Below are positions 4,641-63,069 of a DNA stretch of 64,000 nucleotides, piece after piece. Position numbers and translations under genes: made by a program. Source of the DNA: Balneolaceae bacterium (GTDB lineage Bacteria; Bacteroidota; Rhodothermia; Balneolales; Balneolaceae); NCBI GenBank assembly GCA_034521495.1, contig JAXHMK010000011.1:1-64000 (forward strand). Reading direction: 5' to 3'. A model generated the notes under the pieces. It made no database searches and was not told the DNA's origin. It saw only the letters and a program-made list of their open reading frames with translations. Each line of letters begins with the position of its first letter. Position 1 is the stretch's first letter.

Positions 4641-7600
4641 TCAGTGAGTCTTTTGATTATTGTTCATTAAATAAACAGACTCCTGTCCAACAACATTTCG
4701 CAATCCTTTTAACAGTTCGTTAGATGGGTCCACAACATATTTTCTTACGTTCATTCGAATCGGCTTGCTGGCATGATCTGATTTTATCTGAAGTTTCACG
4801 GGTGTTTCGCCTGTATTACTGTCAAAAAGTGTGGCCATTTCATGAAGATCATCCTCAGAAATTTCCGAGGTATCCAATTTAATATTCAATTGTAACTGAC
4901 TCTGAAATTTCTCCCGCAGGTTTTCAATGCGTTCAAGACTATTTGCAATAATTTTGGGTTGACTGTCACGCAGAGAGATCGTCCCTTCAATCAGAAGAAC
5001 AGTATCCGGGGCAATAAGTCCCTGGTGTCTGTCGTACACTTCGCTAAATACCAACACCTCAACACTTCCATGCAGGTCTTCTACCTGAATAAATGCCATG
5101 GGCCGGCCTTTTTTATCAGTAATTCTTTTCACAGCCGTAATAATTGCCACTACTTTCACTTTGTCACGATCGTTCAAATCAGATAGTTCATCTACTGACA
5201 ACGTGTGGCTCGCAAAAAGTTCTGTATCTTCTTTGTATCGGTCTAACGGATGTCCGCTTAAATAAAAACCAATTAATTCCCGCTCTTTGTTGAGACGCTC
5301 GATATTTGTCCAGGGCGGACGATCCCTCAGTTTTGGTTCCTGAACAAAACCACTGCCGGATGATCCATCACCAAACAAGCTGACTTGATTGAGCCTTTCC
5401 TCTTCCTGTTTTCGTGATGCATAACTCAGCACATCTTCAATACTTGCCAAAAGCTGAGCCCGGTTTTCGTGAAGTGTATCAAACGCGCCGGCTTGTGCCA
5501 AACTTTCCAATGTTTTCTTATTGCATACACGAGTATCAATACGGGATGAAAAATCAAAAATAGTTCTGAACTCACCTTTCTCATTTCTGTTTTTAACAAT
5601 TTGTTCAATTGCACCGGATCCCACACCCTTGATAGCCAGTAAACCATATTGCACGCGTCCATCTTTCGCCACGAACTTTCCCTCGGCAGTATTAATATTG
5701 GGCGGATCAACAGGTATTCCAATTCTCTGACACTCTTCGATAAAGAAACTCACTTTTTTGATATCGCCCATGTTGTGGCTCAGCACCGCCGCCATGTACT
5801 CGGCAGTATAGTTCGCCTTGAAATACATGGTTTGATACGCCACAACCGAATATGCCGCCGAGTGCGATTTGTTAAATCCGTAACCCGCAAACATCGCCAT
5901 CTTGTCGAACACTTTTTTGGCAGTGTCCTTCTCATAACCTTTTTCGATAGCCCGGCCAACGAATTTTTCTTCTTCAGGAGGCAATAGTTCAGGCTGCTTC
6001 TTACCCATAATTCGCCGCAACACATCCGCTTCACCCAGTGTATAACCGCCCATTCGCTGTGCCACCTTCATAATCTGCTCCTGGTAGATCATGATACCAT
6101 AGGTCGGTTCCAGGATATCCACCAGGTCTTCATGATCATATACCACTTTCTCCTCGCCATGCTTCCGTTTGATATAATCCGGAATGAACTGCATAGGGCC
6201 GGGCCGGTACAATGCGTTCATAGCAATTAAATCGTTGATACTCGATGGTTTTAATTGCTTGAGATATCTCCGCATACCATCCGATTCAAACTGAAACACA
6301 CCCACCGTAGCCCCTTTTTGGAACATTCGGAAAGTCTTTTCATCATCCAGCGGTATATCATCGAGATCATACTCATCTCCATGATTCTCTTTTACAAAAT
6401 GAATGGCTGTTTTCAGGATCGAAAGTGTCTTCAAACCGAGAAAATCCATCTTCAGCATCCCGGCATCTTCAATTACTTTGCCGTCGAACTGGGTAACGTA
6501 GAGATCCACATCCTTGGCCGTACAAATCGGGATATATTTTGTGAGTTTATCCGGGGCAATAATAACTCCCGCCGCATGAATCCCGGTATTTCGCACGGAC
6601 CCTTCAAGAGTTTCGGCCATTTGAAGCGTCCGGCCCTCAAGGGATTCCGATTCTTTGATCTCCTTCAACTCTTTCACTCCCTGGAAGGCCTCTTCAAGAG
6701 AGATCCCAATGGTTTCAGGAACAAGTTTGGCAAGCCGGTCTGCATCAGACAGCGGAAGATCCAGTACACGAGCTACATCACGCACGGATGAACGAGCTGC
6801 CATTGTACCAAATGTAATGATATGTGCAACCTGGGCTTTGCCATATTTATCCACTACATAGTCGATCACTTTTTGACGGCCATCATCATCAAAATCGATA
6901 TCGATATCGGGCATGGACACACGTTCGGGATTCAGGAATCGCTCAAAAAGAAGATCGTATTCAAGCGGATCGATATTGGTAATCCCCGTACAATAAGCCA
7001 CCACAGAACCGGCGGCAGAACCACGTCCCGGTCCTACATAAACACTCATCTCTTTCGCAGCCGCAATAAAATCCTGTACAATCAAAAAGTAACCGGCAAA
7101 TCCCATCTCTCCGATAATCTTCAGTTCGAGATCAATTCGGTCCAGAACCTCATCATTAATCTCGGGATATCTCTCCTTGGCTCCTTCAAGTGTCAAATGG
7201 CGCAGGTATTCATCTTCCGTTTCAAAAGAATCCGGCAGTGAAAAATGAGGGAGAATCACTTCACGGTCCAGATCAATCATTTCCACCTTATCGGCAACCT
7301 CAACTGTATTGGTGATCGCCTCGGGAACATCCGCAAAAAGAGATTTCATCTCCTGCTGCGTTTTGAAATAAAACTCGTCATTCGGGAATCCGTATCGTTT
7401 CTCTCTTCCTTTACCAATCGGTGTAGAGATCGATTCGTTGTTATCTATACAAAGCAGCGCATCGTGAGCTTTCGAATCATCTTCCTCCATATAGAAGGTG
7501 TTGTTGGAGGCAATTACTTTAATGTCGTACTTCTCAGCAAACTCCAGCAAGATGCCATTCACACGCTCTTCCTCTTCCAAACCGTGACGCATCAGTTCGA

Positions 7601-8864
7601 TATACAGATCATCTCCAAACAGATCGTGCCACCATTTCAACGCCTCCTCAGCCACCTCTTCACCCCGGTTCAAAATCAGGTCAGGTACTTCCCCGCCAAT
7701 TCCCCCCGTGGTTGCAATTAATCCCTTTCTGTATTTCTGAACTAACTCGCGGTCAATTCGTGGAAACTTGTAATAATATCCTTCAATGAATCCGAGTGAA
7801 CACATCTCCGCGAGATTTTCATATCCCTCCCGATCTTTTGCCAGGAATACCTGCCGGAAACGTTTGTCTTTTCGATCACGGGTAAACTTTTTCTCATGCC
7901 GGTCCTCAACAAAATAAGCTTCCAGACCAATAATCGGTTTAATTCCTGCGGCTTTTGCCGCCTTCACAAAATGGAAGACACCATACATATTTCCGAGATC
8001 AGTCAGAGCCACCGCCGGCATTCCATCCTCCTTGGCTTTCTTCACCAAATCCTTCACTCCCGATGCGGCTTGCAAAACCGAATATTTGGAGTGGTTGTGA
8101 AGATGTACAAATGCTGAATCTACCTGCGGGCCGGTTTGATCTTGCTGCAGATCGATAATTGATGAAGCTTCCTCTTCCTCACCCGTAACACCACGCCGTT
8201 TCAAATCTTCAACCTTTGGCATGTAATGGTTGGGATCAATCAGTTTTGACGGGTTTGGCGGAATTGAGCCCGGTTCTGCGGGAAACGTTGGCTGAATAAC
8301 CCCGATTCTCACCAATTCGAGAAAGGCTCTTGCTGTGGCATCCACATCAGCGGCTGCATTATGAGCTTCCTCAAAGCCTATATCAAAAAGTTTATCGTGC
8401 AACTCCGACAACGTCGGCCATTTGTATCGGCCACGCCCGCCCGGAATAGCGCAGTATTCAGTGGCGTCATCCTTGGTATCGATATGGATTTTTTCGGTGA
8501 GCGGATTCTCCCGTTCCATTCGCAGATATTCAGATCCCATAATATTGAGATCGAACTCCAGGTTGTGGCCAACAATGAACGTGCTATTTTCTACATCCTC
8601 ATCAAAAGCATCCATTACATCGGCAAGTGGAATCCCCTCCTTCTCTGCACGTCCGGTTGAAATACCGTGAATTTTCTCAGAGTTGAATGGGATTGTAAAC
8701 CCATCGGGCTTAACGATATAATTTCCTTTTGAGATCAGTTTCCCGGTTTCATCATGCACCTGCCAGGCAAGCTGAACACAGCGCGGCCAGTTGTCGAAAT
8801 CGGTCAGCGGAGCTGAATAATTATCAGGAAGGCCGGTTGTTTCAGTGTCAAAAATCAGGTACAT
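4641..8864 (-). CDS. dnaE: DNA polymerase III alpha subunit with fused N-terminal DnaQ-like 3'-5' exonuclease
   Basis: Replicative polymerase of 1,407 aa. Residues 1-190 form a DEDDh exonuclease: DTETTG (D6, E8), GHNLEFD (D105), H168 and D173 are all present, so proofreading should be active. A PHP domain follows from residue 251 but lacks several metal ligands: the usual Asp is Gln265 and the usual His after Thr-Asp is Leu290. Polymerase Asp residues are in PDIDIDF near 652-654 and in MDFLGLKTL near 806. A helix-hairpin-helix, a clamp-binding motif QVSLFG near 1160 and an OB fold near 1215-1290 complete it. Polymerase and proofreader are therefore one chain here, unlike the separate DnaE and DnaQ of E. 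coli. Start ATG at 8864. Confidence 0.95.
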   Translation of the reverse strand: MYLIFDTETTGLPDNYSAPLTDFDNWPRCVQLAWQVHDETGKLISKGNYIVKPDGFTIPFNSEKIHGISTGRAEKEGIPLADVMDAFDEDVENSTFIVGHNLEFDLNIMGSEYLRMERENPLTEKIHIDTKDDATEYCAIPGGRGRYKWPTLSELHDKLFDIGFEEAHNAAADVDATARAFLELVRIGVIQPTFPAEPGSIPPNPSKLIDPNHYMPKVEDLKRRGVTGEEEEASSIIDLQQDQTGPQVDSAFVHLHNHSKYSVLQAASGVKDLVKKAKEDGMPAVALTDLGNMYGVFHFVKAAKAAGIKPIIGLEAYFVEDRHEKKFTRDRKDKRFRQVFLAKDREGYENLAEMCSLGFIEGYYYKFPRIDRELVQKYRKGLIATTGGIGGEVPDLILNRGEEVAEEALKWWHDLFGDDLYIELMRHGLEEEERVNGILLEFAEKYDIKVIASNNTFYMEEDDSKAHDALLCIDNNESISTPIGKGREKRYGFPNDEFYFKTQQEMKSLFADVPEAITNTVEVADKVEMIDLDREVILPHFSLPDSFETEDEYLRHLTLEGAKERYPEINDEVLDRIDLELKIIGEMGFAGYFLIVQDFIAAAKEMSVYVGPGRGSAAGSVVAYCTGITNIDPLEYDLLFERFLNPERVSMPDIDIDFDDDGRQKVIDYVVDKYGKAQVAHIITFGTMAARSSVRDVARVLDLPLSDADRLAKLVPETIGISLEEAFQGVKELKEIKESESLEGRTLQMAETLEGSVRNTGIHAAGVIIAPDKLTKYIPICTAKDVDLYVTQFDGKVIEDAGMLKMDFLGLKTLSILKTAIHFVKENHGDEYDLDDIPLDDEKTFRMFQKGATVGVFQFESDGMRRYLKQLKPSSINDLIAMNALYRPGPMQFIPDYIKRKHGEEKVVYDHEDLVDILEPTYGIMIYQEQIMKVAQRMGGYTLGEADVLRRIMGKKQPELLPPEEEKFVGRAIEKGYEKDTAKKVFDKMAMFAGYGFNKSHSAAYSVVAYQTMYFKANYTAEYMAAVLSHNMGDIKKVSFFIEECQRIGIPVDPPNINTAEGKFVAKDGRVQYGLLAIKGVGSGAIEQIVKNRNEKGEFRTIFDFSSRIDTRVCNKKTLESLAQAGAFDTLHENRAQLLASIEDVLSYASRKQEEERLNQVSLFGDGSSGSGFVQEPKLRDRPPWTNIERLNKERELIGFYLSGHPLDRYKEDTELFASHTLSVDELSDLNDRDKVKVVAIITAVKRITDKKGRPMAFIQVEDLHGSVEVLVFSEVYDRHQGLIAPDTVLLIEGTISLRDSQPKIIANSLERIENLREKFQSQLQLNIKLDTSEISEDDLHEMATLFDSNTGETPVKLQIKSDHASKPIRMNVRKYVVDPSNELLKGLRNVVGQESVYLMNNNQKTH

Positions 8865-8966
8865 AGAACGGTTCTCTTTTAGTGGATTATGAGGAAGCTG
8901 GAACTGCTTTAAAATATACTAAGCGAGAAGGGAAAAGAAGAATTATAATCAGGAAATTTCGAGAGG

Positions 8967-9028
8967 TTCATCGGATGAGTGTGAACGGTAAAAAACCAGA
9001 ATATTAGCAAATTTACTCATCCGATGAA
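8967..9028. repeat. 62-bp inverted-repeat element, copy 1
   Basis: TTCATCGGATGAGT at 8967-8980 is matched by its exact reverse complement at 9015-9028. The 12-bp core arms enclose 38 nt. A second element with the same 12-bp core and the same 38-nt centre lies at 12011-12072. This copy lies just 3' of the alpha/beta hydrolase gene and could also act as an mRNA 3'-end hairpin. No U-tract follows it. Confidence 0.8.
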
Positions 9029-9039
9029 TAGCATGAAAC

Positions 9040-9894
9040 TCATTTATTTTTCTGTATTTTCGGTTTTATCTGCTTATCAACAAGCTGCAAAAACTCTCGC
9101 CAATTTTTTCTGTGTATATCCACTGATGCATGAAAATTATCATTATGGCCGCCTCTTAACTCAACAAATGTTTTCGGCTCCTTTGCAGTCCCAAACAAAG
9201 ATTTTCCGTGAGAAATATCCACAATGCTATCATTTGGGCTGTGCATAATCATCACCGGAATGCCCGAAAGTTGTCGGAGGTAATGCTCCGCAGGAAATTC
9301 GTATGCAGCCAAAAAAGCCGGTACAAATGGGTAGAGGTCGCTCACCATTGCTTTCAAGTTTTTAAAAGCAGAATCCATCACCAAGCCTCCTGCGTTAAAT
9401 TTAGCAGCTGCGTAAGCTGCCACCGCTCCGCCCATCGATCGTCCATACATAATCATCTGCTTCTCTGAGTATCCCTTTTCTGTTTGCAGGTAATTTACAA
9501 CCGCCTCAATATCACTATATAATCCCTCCTCACTGGGTTTTCCCGAACTTTGTCCATATCCACGATAATCGTAAATCAAAACGGCGAGTCCCATTTCTTG
9601 CAGAAACTTAGCGATATCAATCCGGTTACTGATGTTCCCTGCATTCCCATGAGAAAGAACCACTATATATTCTGTAGAATTGTCTGGGAAAAACCAGCCG
9701 TGAAGTTGTTCGCCGTCATCCGTCTCAACCCAAATATCTTCAGCCTGAAGTCCTGCTTTTTGCGGAGTGATTAAAAAATCTGACGAGGGCAAAAAAAGAA
9801 GTTTGTTTTGAAATAGATACATGAATAAAAGGAGTAGAATATACCCCCCTGCAAGTGTAGCTAATAGTGAAATCATTGCTTTTAGATATCTCAT
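9040..9894 (-). CDS. Membrane-anchored alpha/beta hydrolase (Bem46/YfhR-like, S33 superfamily)
   Basis: Serine hydrolase of 284 aa with an N-terminal membrane anchor at residues 7-29 and the catalytic domain probably outside the cytoplasmic membrane. The oxyanion motif SHGNAGN is at 81-87, the nucleophile elbow GRSMGGA puts Ser153 in place, and Asp222 (HSPND) and His250 (GGHNDN) complete the triad. This is the pattern of the Bem46/ABHD13 group, whose substrates are poorly known. The gene lies between dnaE and thpR, all on the minus strand, with a 36-bp gap to thpR. Confidence 0.85.
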   Translation of the reverse strand: MRYLKAMISLLATLAGGYILLLLFMYLFQNKLLFLPSSDFLITPQKAGLQAEDIWVETDDGEQLHGWFFPDNSTEYIVVLSHGNAGNISNRIDIAKFLQEMGLAVLIYDYRGYGQSSGKPSEEGLYSDIEAVVNYLQTEKGYSEKQMIMYGRSMGGAVAAYAAAKFNAGGLVMDSAFKNLKAMVSDLYPFVPAFLAAYEFPAEHYLRQLSGIPVMIMHSPNDSIVDISHGKSLFGTAKEPKTFVELRGGHNDNFHASVDIHRKNWREFLQLVDKQIKPKIQKNK

Positions 9895-9930
9895 CTACAT
9901 TTCATTAGGAAAATAGAATCTAACAAATCT

Positions 9931-10458
9931 TTATGAATAGCTTAGAAGAACAATATGTTCACTTCCGGACGACTTCAAAATACTCTGTTTTAGCTGGAAA
10001 GACTCCACCTCAACAACTAATTTCTCTGTTTCTTTTCGAAGCATCTGTTTCAGATCATAATTGATTCCTTTGTTCGATTTTTTCCGAGCCAGCGTGATAT
10101 GGGGAATGTAAGAATCAGAATGTTTTGATTTGATATAGTCTTTTAGCGAATCCGAAATACTCTGTTGTAAATTTATTAATTCTTCGCAATGCTGTACACC
10201 CGCCCATATAATTCTCGGTGCCGATTCATTCGGAAATGCTCCCAAACCTTCAATTACCATATCAAATGGAGTAAATTCTATTTCTGACAATATTTTATGA
10301 ATCTCGTCTTTCTCTTGTGCTGAACAATCACCCAAAAAAACCAATGTCAGATGCATCTGGTGCAGAGATGTTTTCTTCCACCCCGCTTGTTCGGGAATCC
10401 AGGATTGAATTGTTTTCAAAATGCTTTCAGGAAAATCGATAGAAACAAAAAGTCTCAT
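9931..10458 (-). CDS. thpR: RNA 2',3'-cyclic phosphodiesterase (LigT/ThpR family)
   Basis: 2H-phosphoesterase of 175 aa that hydrolyses 2',3'-cyclic ends on RNA and can ligate tRNA halves in vitro. Both signature HxTx motifs are present: HLTL at 36-39 and HITL at 120-123. The length matches the family. The ATG overlaps the stop codon of the acylphosphatase gene by four bases (ATGA), so the two form a coupled pair. Confidence 0.92.
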   Translation of the reverse strand: MRLFVSIDFPESILKTIQSWIPEQAGWKKTSLHQMHLTLVFLGDCSAQEKDEIHKILSEIEFTPFDMVIEGLGAFPNESAPRIIWAGVQHCEELINLQQSISDSLKDYIKSKHSDSYIPHITLARKKSNKGINYDLKQMLRKETEKLVVEVESFQLKQSILKSSGSEHIVLLSYS

Positions 10459-10736
10459 CGGCGGATGGTAAAATCGTTAAAGTTATCTGTATCCGTTGTC
10501 AGTTCTACCTCTTCAACATTTTGCACTTTTGCACTTGCCGGTCCCTCTTTTAACTCTTCCATCATGTTATAAACATTTTCGGGAGAGCCTGTGAACACGG
10601 TTTCAACGGTTCCATCCTGTAAATTTTTTACCCATCCCTTAATATTTAATTTTTTGGCCGTTTTGTATGTAAAATAACGGAACCCAACGCCTTGTACCCG
10701 CCCTGAAATTATTAAATGTTTACTTGTCGTCTCCAT
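10455..10736 (-). CDS. acyP: Acylphosphatase
   Basis: Small cytoplasmic hydrolase of acyl phosphates, 93 aa. The phosphate-binding loop GRVQGVGFR gives the catalytic Arg20, and KNLQDGTVE gives Asn38. The reading frame continues upstream to 10796, but the family begins just before this loop, so the ATG at 10736 is preferred. It is the first gene of a pair with thpR and is divergent from oxyR across a gap of about 230 bp that must hold both promoters. Confidence 0.93.
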   Translation of the reverse strand: METTSKHLIISGRVQGVGFRYFTYKTAKKLNIKGWVKNLQDGTVETVFTGSPENVYNMMEELKEGPASAKVQNVEEVELTTDTDNFNDFTIRR

Positions 10737-10962
10737 TGTAAAATCTATTATTTCTTTGATAATTTGCTTAAACCTGCAATAAATACTGAACAACAATCAA
10801 AAATAGTTTTCTTACTTGTTTATATAAATATTTTGGTGTCTTAAAAATTCAATCATAATCTTGACTAATGCACCATTGGTTTATGTTTGCCCTCAATTTC
10901 GTACATTTTATCCACAGGTAAGACAACTAACAAATTCCATAACGGACTACACCTTTTAACCA

Positions 10963-11898
10963 ATGACACTTACACAACTCTCATACATTGTTGCCGTTGA
11001 TAAATACCGGCATTTTGCTACGGCAGCTGAAAAAAGTTTTGTTACCCAGCCTACGCTCAGCATGCAGATTCACAAACTGGAGGATGAACTCGGCATCACC
11101 ATTTTCGACCGGTCAAAATCGCCCGTCATTCCAACTGAAATTGGTGAAAAAATCATTGATCAGGCTAAAACGATTTTAAAGGAGTCGAAACAACTATCAG
11201 ATATTGCCAATTTCAAAGAAAACGAGTTGAAGGGTACATTCAAGGTGGGAATCATTCCAACAGTTGCACCTTATTTAGTTCCGTTATTTCTTCGATCATT
11301 TCTGAAGAAATATCCCCAGGTAAATCTGGTATTTGAAGAACTTTTAACCCAGGAAGTGATAGAACAACTTGGTAATGACCAGTTGGATGCCGGCATCATA
11401 GCCACACCCACCGATCAAAGTTTTATCTATACAGAAGATCTTTTTGTCGAGCCGTTTCTTGGATATCTGTCCCACAATCACCCTCTTAATGAAAAAGAAA
11501 AACTTTCGGTTGATGACCTGGATCAAACCAATATCTGGTTATTAAACGAGGGTCACTGCTTTAGAGACCAGGCAGTTAAGCTTTGTAAGGAAACCACCAA
11601 GAAAAACAATCACTCCCCAATTGAATTTAAGAGTGGAAACCTGGAGACATTAAAACGCCTTGTAGAACAAAACTTTGGCATGACTCTACTCCCATGGACA
11701 GCCGTTCAGGAGTTCGACAGCAACTGCGCCAATGCCGTCATCAAAGAGTTCCAGGATCCTGTTCCATCCCGTAAACTGCGCCTCATTTTTGGCCGGAAAC
11801 ATCTCAAACAGACCATTATCGGGGCGTTTAAAGAATCGATCTGCAGCTCGATTCCAAAAGCATTGAAAACAACTGAGAAACGAGTGTTGATTGAATAG
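10963..11898 (+). CDS. oxyR: Hydrogen-peroxide-sensing LysR-type regulator OxyR
   Basis: LysR-family activator of 311 aa with an N-terminal winged helix-turn-helix (residues 1-60) and a substrate-binding-like sensor domain (91-300). The peroxide switch is intact: GHCFRDQAVKLC places cysteines at residues 199 and 208, the same numbering as in E. coli OxyR. It should activate peroxide-defence genes when oxidised. No catalase, peroxiredoxin or Dps gene is adjacent, so its targets are elsewhere. It is divergent from acyP. A possible Bacteroidota-style promoter (TTGG at 10876, TACATTTT at 10902) is only tentative. Confidence 0.95.
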   Translation: MTLTQLSYIVAVDKYRHFATAAEKSFVTQPTLSMQIHKLEDELGITIFDRSKSPVIPTEIGEKIIDQAKTILKESKQLSDIANFKENELKGTFKVGIIPTVAPYLVPLFLRSFLKKYPQVNLVFEELLTQEVIEQLGNDQLDAGIIATPTDQSFIYTEDLFVEPFLGYLSHNHPLNEKEKLSVDDLDQTNIWLLNEGHCFRDQAVKLCKETTKKNNHSPIEFKSGNLETLKRLVEQNFGMTLLPWTAVQEFDSNCANAVIKEFQDPVPSRKLRLIFGRKHLKQTIIGAFKESICSSIPKALKTTEKRVLIE

Positions 11899-11905
11899 TC
11901 ATTGT

Positions 11906-11928
11906 CACAAGCGGGACGCTTGCGCCAT
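11906..11928. repeat. 23-bp dispersed repeat, copy A
   Basis: This 23-bp stretch is identical to the reverse complement of 56949-56971. Its last 15 bases, GGACGCTTGCGCCAT, recur at 23824-23838. It contains the small palindrome CAAGCG/CGCTTG. It starts 8 bp past the oxyR stop. A 70-codon open frame across it at 11902-12114 looks spurious. Confidence 0.8.
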
Positions 11929-12010
11929 CACATCAAAAAGATAGCGGGCAGGCATCTCGTTCGTGCTTATTGTAAGGATTTTCTCGGCGGGAGAATCACA
12001 CACCGATTCA

Positions 12011-12072
12011 TTCATCGGATGAGAATATTTACCAATTATTTTAAAACTACATCCAAACATTCATCCGATGAA
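12011..12072. repeat. 62-bp inverted-repeat element, copy 2
   Basis: TTCATCGGATGA at 12011-12022 and TCATCCGATGAA at 12061-12072 form a perfect 12-bp inverted repeat around 38 nt, exactly as at 8967-9028. The outer half of the centre resembles copy 1 when one copy is inverted (roughly half the positions overall), so the two look like diverged copies of one small element. It lies between oxyR and the TerC gene. Confidence 0.8.
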
Positions 12073-12178
12073 TCTTCAAAAAAGAGATCTACTCGACAAC
12101 TGATCGAATCATAAATTTAATCCTCAAATCAAAATCCCGTACCTTTCTCTCTTTTGAAATTACGACCCCAAAAATTTA

Positions 12179-13123
12179 ATGGACCACAGTCTTACCCTTT
12201 GGATTTTATTTAATGCCTTTATCCTGACAATGCTGATTGTTGACCTGAAAGTCTTCAACCGCAAACCTCACGAAATCAGCATCAGGGAAAGCCTTATCTG
12301 GACCGGAATCTGGATAGCTATGGCTGTTGTTTTTGGCATTGGGCTCTACTTTTTCATGGACCCACAATCCTCACTCGATTATTTTACGGGTTACTTGATT
12401 GAAAAATCTCTCAGCGTCGATAATATCTTTGTCTTCCTGTTGATTTTTACCTACTTCGGTGTGGATTCTATTTACCAGCATAAAGTACTTTTTTGGGGAA
12501 TTTTTGGCGCTCTTGTTTTTCGACTCCTGTTTATCATGGTGGGCGTTGCATTGTTGGAACAGTTCCACTGGATTATTTATGTGTTCGGTGCATTTCTGAT
12601 TTTTACAGGTATTAAACTTGGCCTGGAAAAAGACAAAGAGATCCACCCGGAAAAGAACCCGATTCTTAAATTGGTACGCCGTTTTATTCCCATTACCAAA
12701 AACTTTCACGGACCGGATTTCATCATCAAACGCGGCAAACGAATTATCGCCACACCTATGTTTGTGGTGCTTGTTGTGATTGAAACTACAGATATTATTT
12801 TTGCACTCGACTCCATTCCCGCAATCATGGCTATCACCCGTGATACCTTTTTAATCTACAGTGCTAACGCATTCGCTATCCTCGGCCTTCGGGCACTTTA
12901 CTTCGCACTTTCCGGAGTGATGCGTCTGTTCCACTATCTGCACTATGGGCTGGCTTTTATTCTTGTGTTTATTGGAGTGAAGATGTTGATCGAAAGTTTC
13001 ATCCATATCCCAACGCTTTTTACTCTTGGTGTAATTGTTGTGACTCTAACGATTTCTGTGATCTTTTCTATCAAATACCCTAAGGAGGAAGAACTTGAGG
13101 TACCGGAAGATGATTTGCAATAA
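12179..13123 (+). CDS. TerC/Alx-family integral membrane protein
   Basis: Polytopic inner-membrane protein of 314 aa with about eight or nine hydrophobic segments. Family hallmarks are FTGYLIEKSLSVDNIFVF near residue 75 and a second acidic repeat, VVIETTDIIFALDSIPA, near residue 200. The family includes E. coli Alx and tellurite-resistance TerC and is linked to manganese or other metal handling. No yybP-ykoY manganese riboswitch is recognisable in the 280 bp upstream. The C-terminus is a short acidic tail. Confidence 0.92.
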   Translation: MDHSLTLWILFNAFILTMLIVDLKVFNRKPHEISIRESLIWTGIWIAMAVVFGIGLYFFMDPQSSLDYFTGYLIEKSLSVDNIFVFLLIFTYFGVDSIYQHKVLFWGIFGALVFRLLFIMVGVALLEQFHWIIYVFGAFLIFTGIKLGLEKDKEIHPEKNPILKLVRRFIPITKNFHGPDFIIKRGKRIIATPMFVVLVVIETTDIIFALDSIPAIMAITRDTFLIYSANAFAILGLRALYFALSGVMRLFHYLHYGLAFILVFIGVKMLIESFIHIPTLFTLGVIVVTLTISVIFSIKYPKEEELEVPEDDLQ

Positions 13124-22289: not shown

Positions 22290-22322
22290 ACCCGTCTGAC
22301 CGCTCAAAGCGGTCTGACGGGT
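22290..22322. terminator. Hairpin between convergent TPR and amidase genes
   Basis: A 14-bp stem with one mismatch (ACCCGTCTGACCGC against GCGGTCTGACGGGT) closes a 5-nt TCAAA loop, 11 bp past the TPR stop and 7 bp before the stop of the opposite gene. It is well placed to terminate both transcripts, although the T-tract is poor on both sides. Confidence 0.65.
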
Positions 22323-22328
22323 ACTTGT

Positions 22329-62943: not shown

Positions 62944-63038
62944 AAAGACTTCCGAAGTCTTTAGCACTTTTGTTAAAATCTAAATCATTTAAATTGTTAC
63001 GAAGTATTTGAGACAGATTCGAAAGACTTCGGAAGTCT
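62944..63038. repeat. Pair of related palindromes
   Basis: AAAGACTTC/GAAGTCTTT at 62944-62962 and AGACTTC/GAAGTCT at 63024-63038 are near-identical palindromes 60 bp apart, just after the heme lipoprotein stop. Together they can also fold against each other. Confidence 0.7.
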
Positions 63039-63069
63039 CCTTTACTCAGAAGTAACAGCACTTGAATAA

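Follow-up and report, generated by a model that had tools for sequence, protein, structure and literature searches.

The first 64 000 nucleotides of contig JAXHMK010000011.1 (positions 1–64 000 of the forward strand; assembly GCA_034521495.1, a Balneolaceae bacterium), hereafter the window, contain two small elements built of inverted 12-mers, TTCATCGGATGA...TCATCCGATGAA, with 38 nt in between: element 1 at 8967–9028 and element 2 at 12011–12072. These positions and spacings reproduce those of the original prediction, which was made from the sequence alone, and both elements are members of a dispersed family of paired palindromes rather than chance hairpins. Element 1 lies between two minus-strand open reading frames (ORFs) from the ORF list, one downstream at 4641–8864, which we take to be a dnaE-like DNA polymerase III alpha gene and which served as an anchor for comparing this site between genomes, and one at 9040–9894, presumably an alpha/beta hydrolase-like gene, that ends beside the element. 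Element 2 is flanked by two listed plus-strand ORFs, an upstream one at 10963–11898, which we assume to be a LysR-type (OxyR-like) regulator gene, and a downstream one at 12179–13123, presumably a TerC-like membrane protein gene. A short repeat around CACAAGCGGGACGCTTGCGCCATC (11903–11938), with many matches in this and congeneric genomes, occurs some 80 bp from element 2.

The genome (4.565 Mb in 22 contigs, 97.38% complete) holds 60 exact copies of the 11-mer core TCATCSGATGA, against none for a reversed-pattern control and roughly two expected from base count alone by simple arithmetic, which bears out the original view that these are not chance hairpins. Pairing each core with its best partner 40–56 bp away (up to two mismatches) yielded 27 doublets and 21 single cores genome-wide, so the further copies that the prediction proposed looking for do exist. 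Both arms are exact in 12 of the 27 doublets, although arms were located by exact search, which biases the set towards intact ones. In the 39 exact arms, the base two positions outside the core (–2) is A in 38, the sole exception being the left arm of element 1, and the mirror base on the inner side is T in 38, while the bases between the core and this A and T vary; outside them no conservation was seen. The conserved unit is therefore A-N-TCATC-S-GATGA-N-T, an odd palindrome of 15 bp that occurs twice, in opposite orientations, over a total of about 64 bp, with centres 49 bp apart in the window copies. The 12-bp arms originally taken as the conserved ends need redrawing: their outermost base is unconserved (G 20, T 10, A 5, C 4 in the exact arms) and the next base outward is the near-invariant A, so that the units run from about 8966 to 9029 and from about 12010 to 12073.

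By this definition element 1 consists of a left repetitive extragenic palindrome (REP), G-T-TCATCGGATGA-G-T, at 8966–8980 on the plus strand (core 8968–8978), an unconserved, strandless middle at 8981–9014, and an inverted right REP, A-C-TCATCCGATGA-A-T, at 9015–9029 on the minus strand (core 9017–9027). Element 2 has the same layout, with a left REP, A-T-TCATCGGATGA-G-A, at 12010–12024 (plus strand, core 12012–12022), an unconserved middle without strand at 12025–12058, and an inverted right REP, A-T-TCATCCGATGA-A-T, at 12059–12073 (minus strand, core 12061–12071).

Across the family the two arms of a doublet match one another: their centre bases are complementary in all 12 doublets with both arms exact (nine G..C, three C..G) and in 23 of 27 overall. 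The doublets are almost exclusively intergenic (26 of 27), whereas 64% of 60-mers placed at random in those segments fall inside ORFs of at least 150 aa; nine of the 21 single cores lie inside such ORFs, and these nine may be chance occurrences. A centre of exactly 38 nt, proposed as the rule, does not hold for the family, as the spacing between core centres varies from 45 to 51 bp in 26 of the 27 doublets, clustering at 47–49 bp, and is 55 bp in one (C10:454096), which is doubtful in view of a better partner 64 bp away. Nor is the partial similarity once noted between the two window middles a general feature: the 27 middles (28–38 bp after trimming) have a mean pairwise identity of 0.603 compared with 0.608 after shuffling, and the eight best pairs listed do not include that of the window. 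Near-identical arms with randomized middles call for a function that persists, for gene conversion, or for amplification that depends on the arms alone.

As DNA, the two window copies are predicted to fold into hairpins of 14 and 13 bp on either strand (z –4.2 to –5.6), and ordinary RNA features, i.e. terminators or mRNA-stabilizing hairpins that share sequence, would likewise combine a hairpin with an intergenic position. However, no conserved T-run accompanies the arms of the doublets in this genome, a scan of 8800–12300 returned no Rfam family at gathering score, and the palindrome with its outer A and T recurs in distant Bacteroidota, which a terminator would not need; we regard an RNA origin as very unlikely. 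Least probable of all, in our judgement, is a miniature inverted-repeat transposable element (MITE) of a classical DDE transposase: short inverted ends, repetition and intergenic placement would fit, but the middles are not shared, the length is not fixed, the transposase genes found with the core (see below) are of the Y1 type, and target-site duplications, for which the original prediction had suggested looking, were not seen by eye beside either window copy.

Expansion of the core is patchy. Among 92 Balneolaceae genomes, nine carry at least 25 copies (124, 80, 64, 61, 60, 39, 30, 25 and 25) and the others 0–17, with 0–3 for controls; among 296 genomes drawn from the phylum, seven reach at least 25, two of them outside Balneolaceae (108 and 43). 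The genome with 124 copies has tandem core arrays around two ordinary genes (G075, contig C3, L270:988–3233), and this dense region holds no gene for the REP-type transposase described below. A doublet scan of named genome contigs, restricted to G..C centres, gave 67 loci, mostly from Bacteroidota, with spacings of 20–54 bp (20–70 scanned) and clusters at 47–49 bp in Fodinibius. In 66 of these loci (L101 was omitted), the A at –2 is present in 129 of 142 arms from Bacteroidota and Ignavibacteria/Kapabacteria and in none of 10 arms from other phyla; the five loci from other phyla, lacking it, were judged to be chance matches and not family members.

The elements look like tiny mobile elements with an uncommon type of sequence, since in some relatives the same palindrome surrounds the gene of a REP-associated Y1/HUH transposase (RAYT). 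The exact core flanks a RAYT gene on both sides, within 1 kb, in two congeners (L143, L157), three Pedobacter genomes and one Ignavibacteria bacterium (together L061, L083, L102 and L108), and in Alkaliflexus (L068) it occurs inside and downstream of the gene, where a TCATC doublet sits within the open RAYT frame (L068:5120–5148). Five of the 67 doublet loci contain a RAYT, and the core is found around or in all five. As these loci (L051–L117, 504 kb) were picked by doublet pattern and not by RAYT, the presence of the core is unsurprising and that of the RAYT is the surprise: five compare with 0.16 expected (P = 8e-7), an expectation that applies the density in Balneolaceae to loci that include other families. 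In a 54-row RAYT tree with midpoint root, one half (29 rows, support 99/97) contains all seven TCATC-linked RAYTs, and the TCATC label requires two changes, a number as low as which was reached in none of 500 shuffles. More generally, an inverted 10-mer with at least three copies over both flanks marks 28 of 56 RAYT loci against nine of 101 control windows (20 of 56 against three of 101 at four copies). Beside the RAYT of one congener (G065) the doublets have middles that are alike by eye, as is expected for recent copies.

The RAYT beside the core in these relatives is predicted to have the Y1/HUH fold of TnpA-REP. Matches to Y1_Tnp are weak, with L108 above the cutoff and L061, L068 and L011, a RAYT from our own genome, below it; likewise, these four score 53–59 bits and L143 scores 50 against NCBIfam NF047646, below its curated cutoff of 80 bits, and all 11 members of one RAYT set (A2) match that family at E up to 0.001. 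Two His and one Tyr are invariant in 11 sequences, and hence the HUH and Y1 catalytic motifs are present. The only PDB match of a RAYT profile at E 0.01 was TnpA-REP (4ER8, E 4e-5), and when L108 was modelled by AlphaFold2 together with four relatives (mean pLDDT 85.9), the same structure was the best Foldseek match (E 1e-8, TM 0.61 by query length, 21% identity across the aligned region), followed by IS200/IS605 transposases.

We suggest, with a probability of about 0.7, that the window elements belong to a REPIN-type family (REP doublets forming hairpins) that has a REP without GTAG, was probably spread by a RAYT and is orphan in this genome. In this model the two inverted REPs would fold into one hairpin in single-stranded DNA, and a RAYT, as a single-strand HUH/Y1 transposase, would recognize the REP arms, cut and join them, and so spread doublets into intergenic DNA, the middle drifting because only the arms would be needed. 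The predicted substrate, for a RAYT such as L143 or L108, would be single-stranded ANTCATCSGATGANT. Our inference is that the REP is a substrate of this RAYT, that doublets are mobile, and that those in this genome came about in this manner.

The main competing explanation is that the core binds a dimeric double-stranded-DNA protein, either a regulator or a chromosome-organizing protein, with the pairs at about 48 bp serving as looped or cooperative operators. Such a site could well be a symmetric dyad with a nearly fixed outermost A and T and a variable base within, kept while the middle decays to shuffled identity, placed between genes in 26 of 27 cases, and spaced at 47–49 bp both here and in Fodinibius. 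It accords less well with the spacing of 18–64 bp beside RAYTs and 20–54 bp at other loci, with the dense core arrays around and inside RAYT genes, with copy numbers from 0 to 124 within one bacterial family, and with an arm polarity and matching centres that independent operators would not need. We consider it unlikely.

Several observations weigh against spread by a RAYT. Within this genome, the middles suggest a recent common copy for only two doublet pairs (C19:90044/92323 and C10:153499/250489). Among 52 Balneolaceae RAYT loci, 40 of them chosen for their RAYT score or as additional RAYTs and 12 because their genome is core-rich, the core lies on both sides within 1 kb in only two, both in congeners (G065 with 39 cores and G044 with 25). 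None of the RAYTs found in our genome is flanked by the core on both sides; the three closest fall in the half of the tree opposite the TCATC-linked ones and adjoin other repeats (4, 4 and 3 copies), and two IS200-like genes have the core on one side only, more than 1 kb away. In addition, no examined RAYT is core-flanked in seven of the core-rich genomes (G075, 124 cores; G248, 108; G068, 80; G078, 64; G016, 61; G231, 43; G066, 30), and G070 (25 cores) gave no RAYT match at E 1e-8. The REP also lacks the GTAG foot, as among positions –8 to –1 of the 39 exact arms only the A at –2 is strongly conserved. Finally, a clean empty site was not resolved at the compared sites, and where element 1 lies here, one congener (G068) has a decayed copy. 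The interpretation is weakest in one respect: here and in these eight core-rich genomes, the driver is either absent, at work from some other place, or not a RAYT at all.

In this genome the family thus seems to be an orphan: the matching RAYT may have been lost, lie in unassembled sequence, have been missed by the searches, or never have been resident. Searching the genome for Y1_Tnp yielded 13 matches, and the core flanks none of them on both sides. One of the three closest RAYTs, at C6:38289, has a single doublet on one side, about 180 bp upstream, but was rejected as the cognate on account of its inner repeats, AGACCCGWCGGGTYT, and its position in the tree. Other RAYTs of this genome (L131, L132, L136 and L139) have inverted repeats of their own alongside, one copy at L132 lying within the RAYT frame. 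The search for a REP-associated transposase suggested originally therefore has a divided outcome, with the core around RAYTs in some relatives and around no transposase found in this genome. A RAYT of G068 from the TCATC half of the tree corresponds to an interval here of 130 bp between aligned ends, without a gene (C22:71426–71557). Its adjoining repeat differs, reading ACCCGTCTGACCGCT, so that it was not accepted as the lost cognate of the TCATC family. In the window, a palindrome ACCCGTCTGACCGCT..AGCGGTCTGACGGGT occurs at 22290–22328, and the version beside the G068 RAYT matches at least 21 places in this genome; with that RAYT absent from the matching place, this is perhaps a second orphan family. 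Further along, at 62946–63040, the window holds a pair AGACTTCCGAAGTCT ... AGACTTCGGAAGTCT, 78 bp apart, and this palindrome flanks a RAYT on both sides in another congener (G055, L236).

Comparison of sites between genomes bears on the age of the copies. In 20 congener stretches around the two window sites (dnaE present in 17, the regulator gene in 18) the exact core was found nowhere. The decayed doublet of G068 occupies site 1 (88% identity over the dnaE start), where G066 has none, and at site 2 no doublet was seen in G066, G058 or G051. In G068 terC appears to be mostly deleted (L200:4998–5600), and a piece resembling its 3' end follows the regulator gene. Of seven loci of our genome compared with relatives, two share a doublet at the same place (L094, L086), one has a single arm common to both genomes (L096), one has a doublet or core in the same interval in both with an unsure alignment (L100), and three, whose flanks align poorly, show no doublet at the corresponding position (L078, L080, L107). 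Because of this comparison we consider the copies partly old, and their presence seems to differ between genomes. The original reading as a small mobile or structural element is thus upheld in that the elements are dispersed and RAYT-associated in some relatives, and not as a fixed 62-bp unit, given that length varies and the middle is unshared; no movement was caught.

REPINs are described in the available text of the literature as hairpin-forming pairs of REPs (Bertels and Rainey, 2011, PMC3116915; a 2021 paper, PMC8049555), mostly from Proteobacteria and with GTAG-tagged REPs, and by the anatomical definition in the accessible part of PMC8049555 our doublets are REPINs. They share two inverted REPs, a short diverse spacer, hairpin capacity, repetition and extragenic position, and in some genomes the same REP flanks a RAYT (six loci on both sides, one inside and downstream). 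They differ in having, in Bacteroidota, an odd-palindromic REP of 15 bp that lacks GTAG and a spacer at shuffled identity, and in that a resident cognate RAYT, which is usual but, as far as that part of PMC8049555 goes, outside its definition, was not found in this genome. The GTAG and CGTC superfamilies of REPs are, in the portion of Di Nocera (2013, PMC3733652) at hand, short palindromes that often form inverted dimers, the CGTC type being reported from Bacteroidetes among other phyla and as not associated with transposase genes. By contrast, the TCATC core adjoins RAYTs in some relatives, and a terminal CGTC tag is absent from the same 39 exact arms of this genome; the L083 copies, unlike these, read CGTCATCSGATGACG.

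TnpA-REP/RAYT subclasses are characterized by HUH and single Tyr motifs, and in the accessible sections of Quentin (2018, PMC6006769) subclass 2.1 has a median length of 238 aa and no REP-like sequences beside its genes. The motifs NHFH ... FQ ... YIHxNP of the core-linked RAYTs come nearest to those of this subclass, to which, on motifs, they might conceivably belong; they are, however, shorter than its median, and REPs lie beside them. The E. coli TnpA-REP, which according to the available text of PMC8266576 needs the GTAG motif, is the best match in both sequence and fold (4ER8), with 21% identity and with GTAG absent from the REP here. A literature search found no report of the TCATCSGATGA palindrome as a REP, the papers containing the letters TCATCGGATGA being on unrelated subjects, and the available part of the RepRanger paper (PMC12306157) mentions neither RAYT nor the letters of the TCATC palindrome.

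A wider format may exist around RAYTs. The same odd 5-N-5 palindrome occurs on both RAYT flanks at nine of 29 loci in the TCATC half of the tree (six of them TCATC) and at five of 28 in the other half. The density of 5-N-5 palindromes in the two halves is 3.72 and 1.76 per kb, against a background, available for density only, of 1.08; an outer A..T accompanies 34 of 127 and 20 of 59 of those beside RAYTs, compared with 14 of 182 background palindromes, and is missing from one side or both in the copies at L083 and L157. A common code for the TCATC half, A-N4-TC-N-GA-N4-T, was discarded, as it is present at only six of 29 loci, nearly all TCATC. Tentatively, and against somewhat unfavourable odds, we propose an undescribed Bacteroidota REP dialect of odd palindromes x5-N-x5', often with outer A and T, each beside its own RAYT from a group that would belong to a subclass reported as REP-less, with at least two such families outliving their RAYT here with arms intact; examples are A-N-TCATC-S-GATGA-N-T, ACTTC-S-GAAGT, ACCCG-W-CGGGT, ACCTG-W-CAGGT and TCGTG-S-CACGA. 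If this is true, arms that outlive the RAYT would be of use to the host as well as to the transposase. Should Bacteroidota have a distinct REP format matched by a separate RAYT group, it would offer a new substrate for examining how REPs are read by RAYTs; with arms still intact in an orphan family, one can also ask experimentally whether doublets are maintained by the transposase or by the host.

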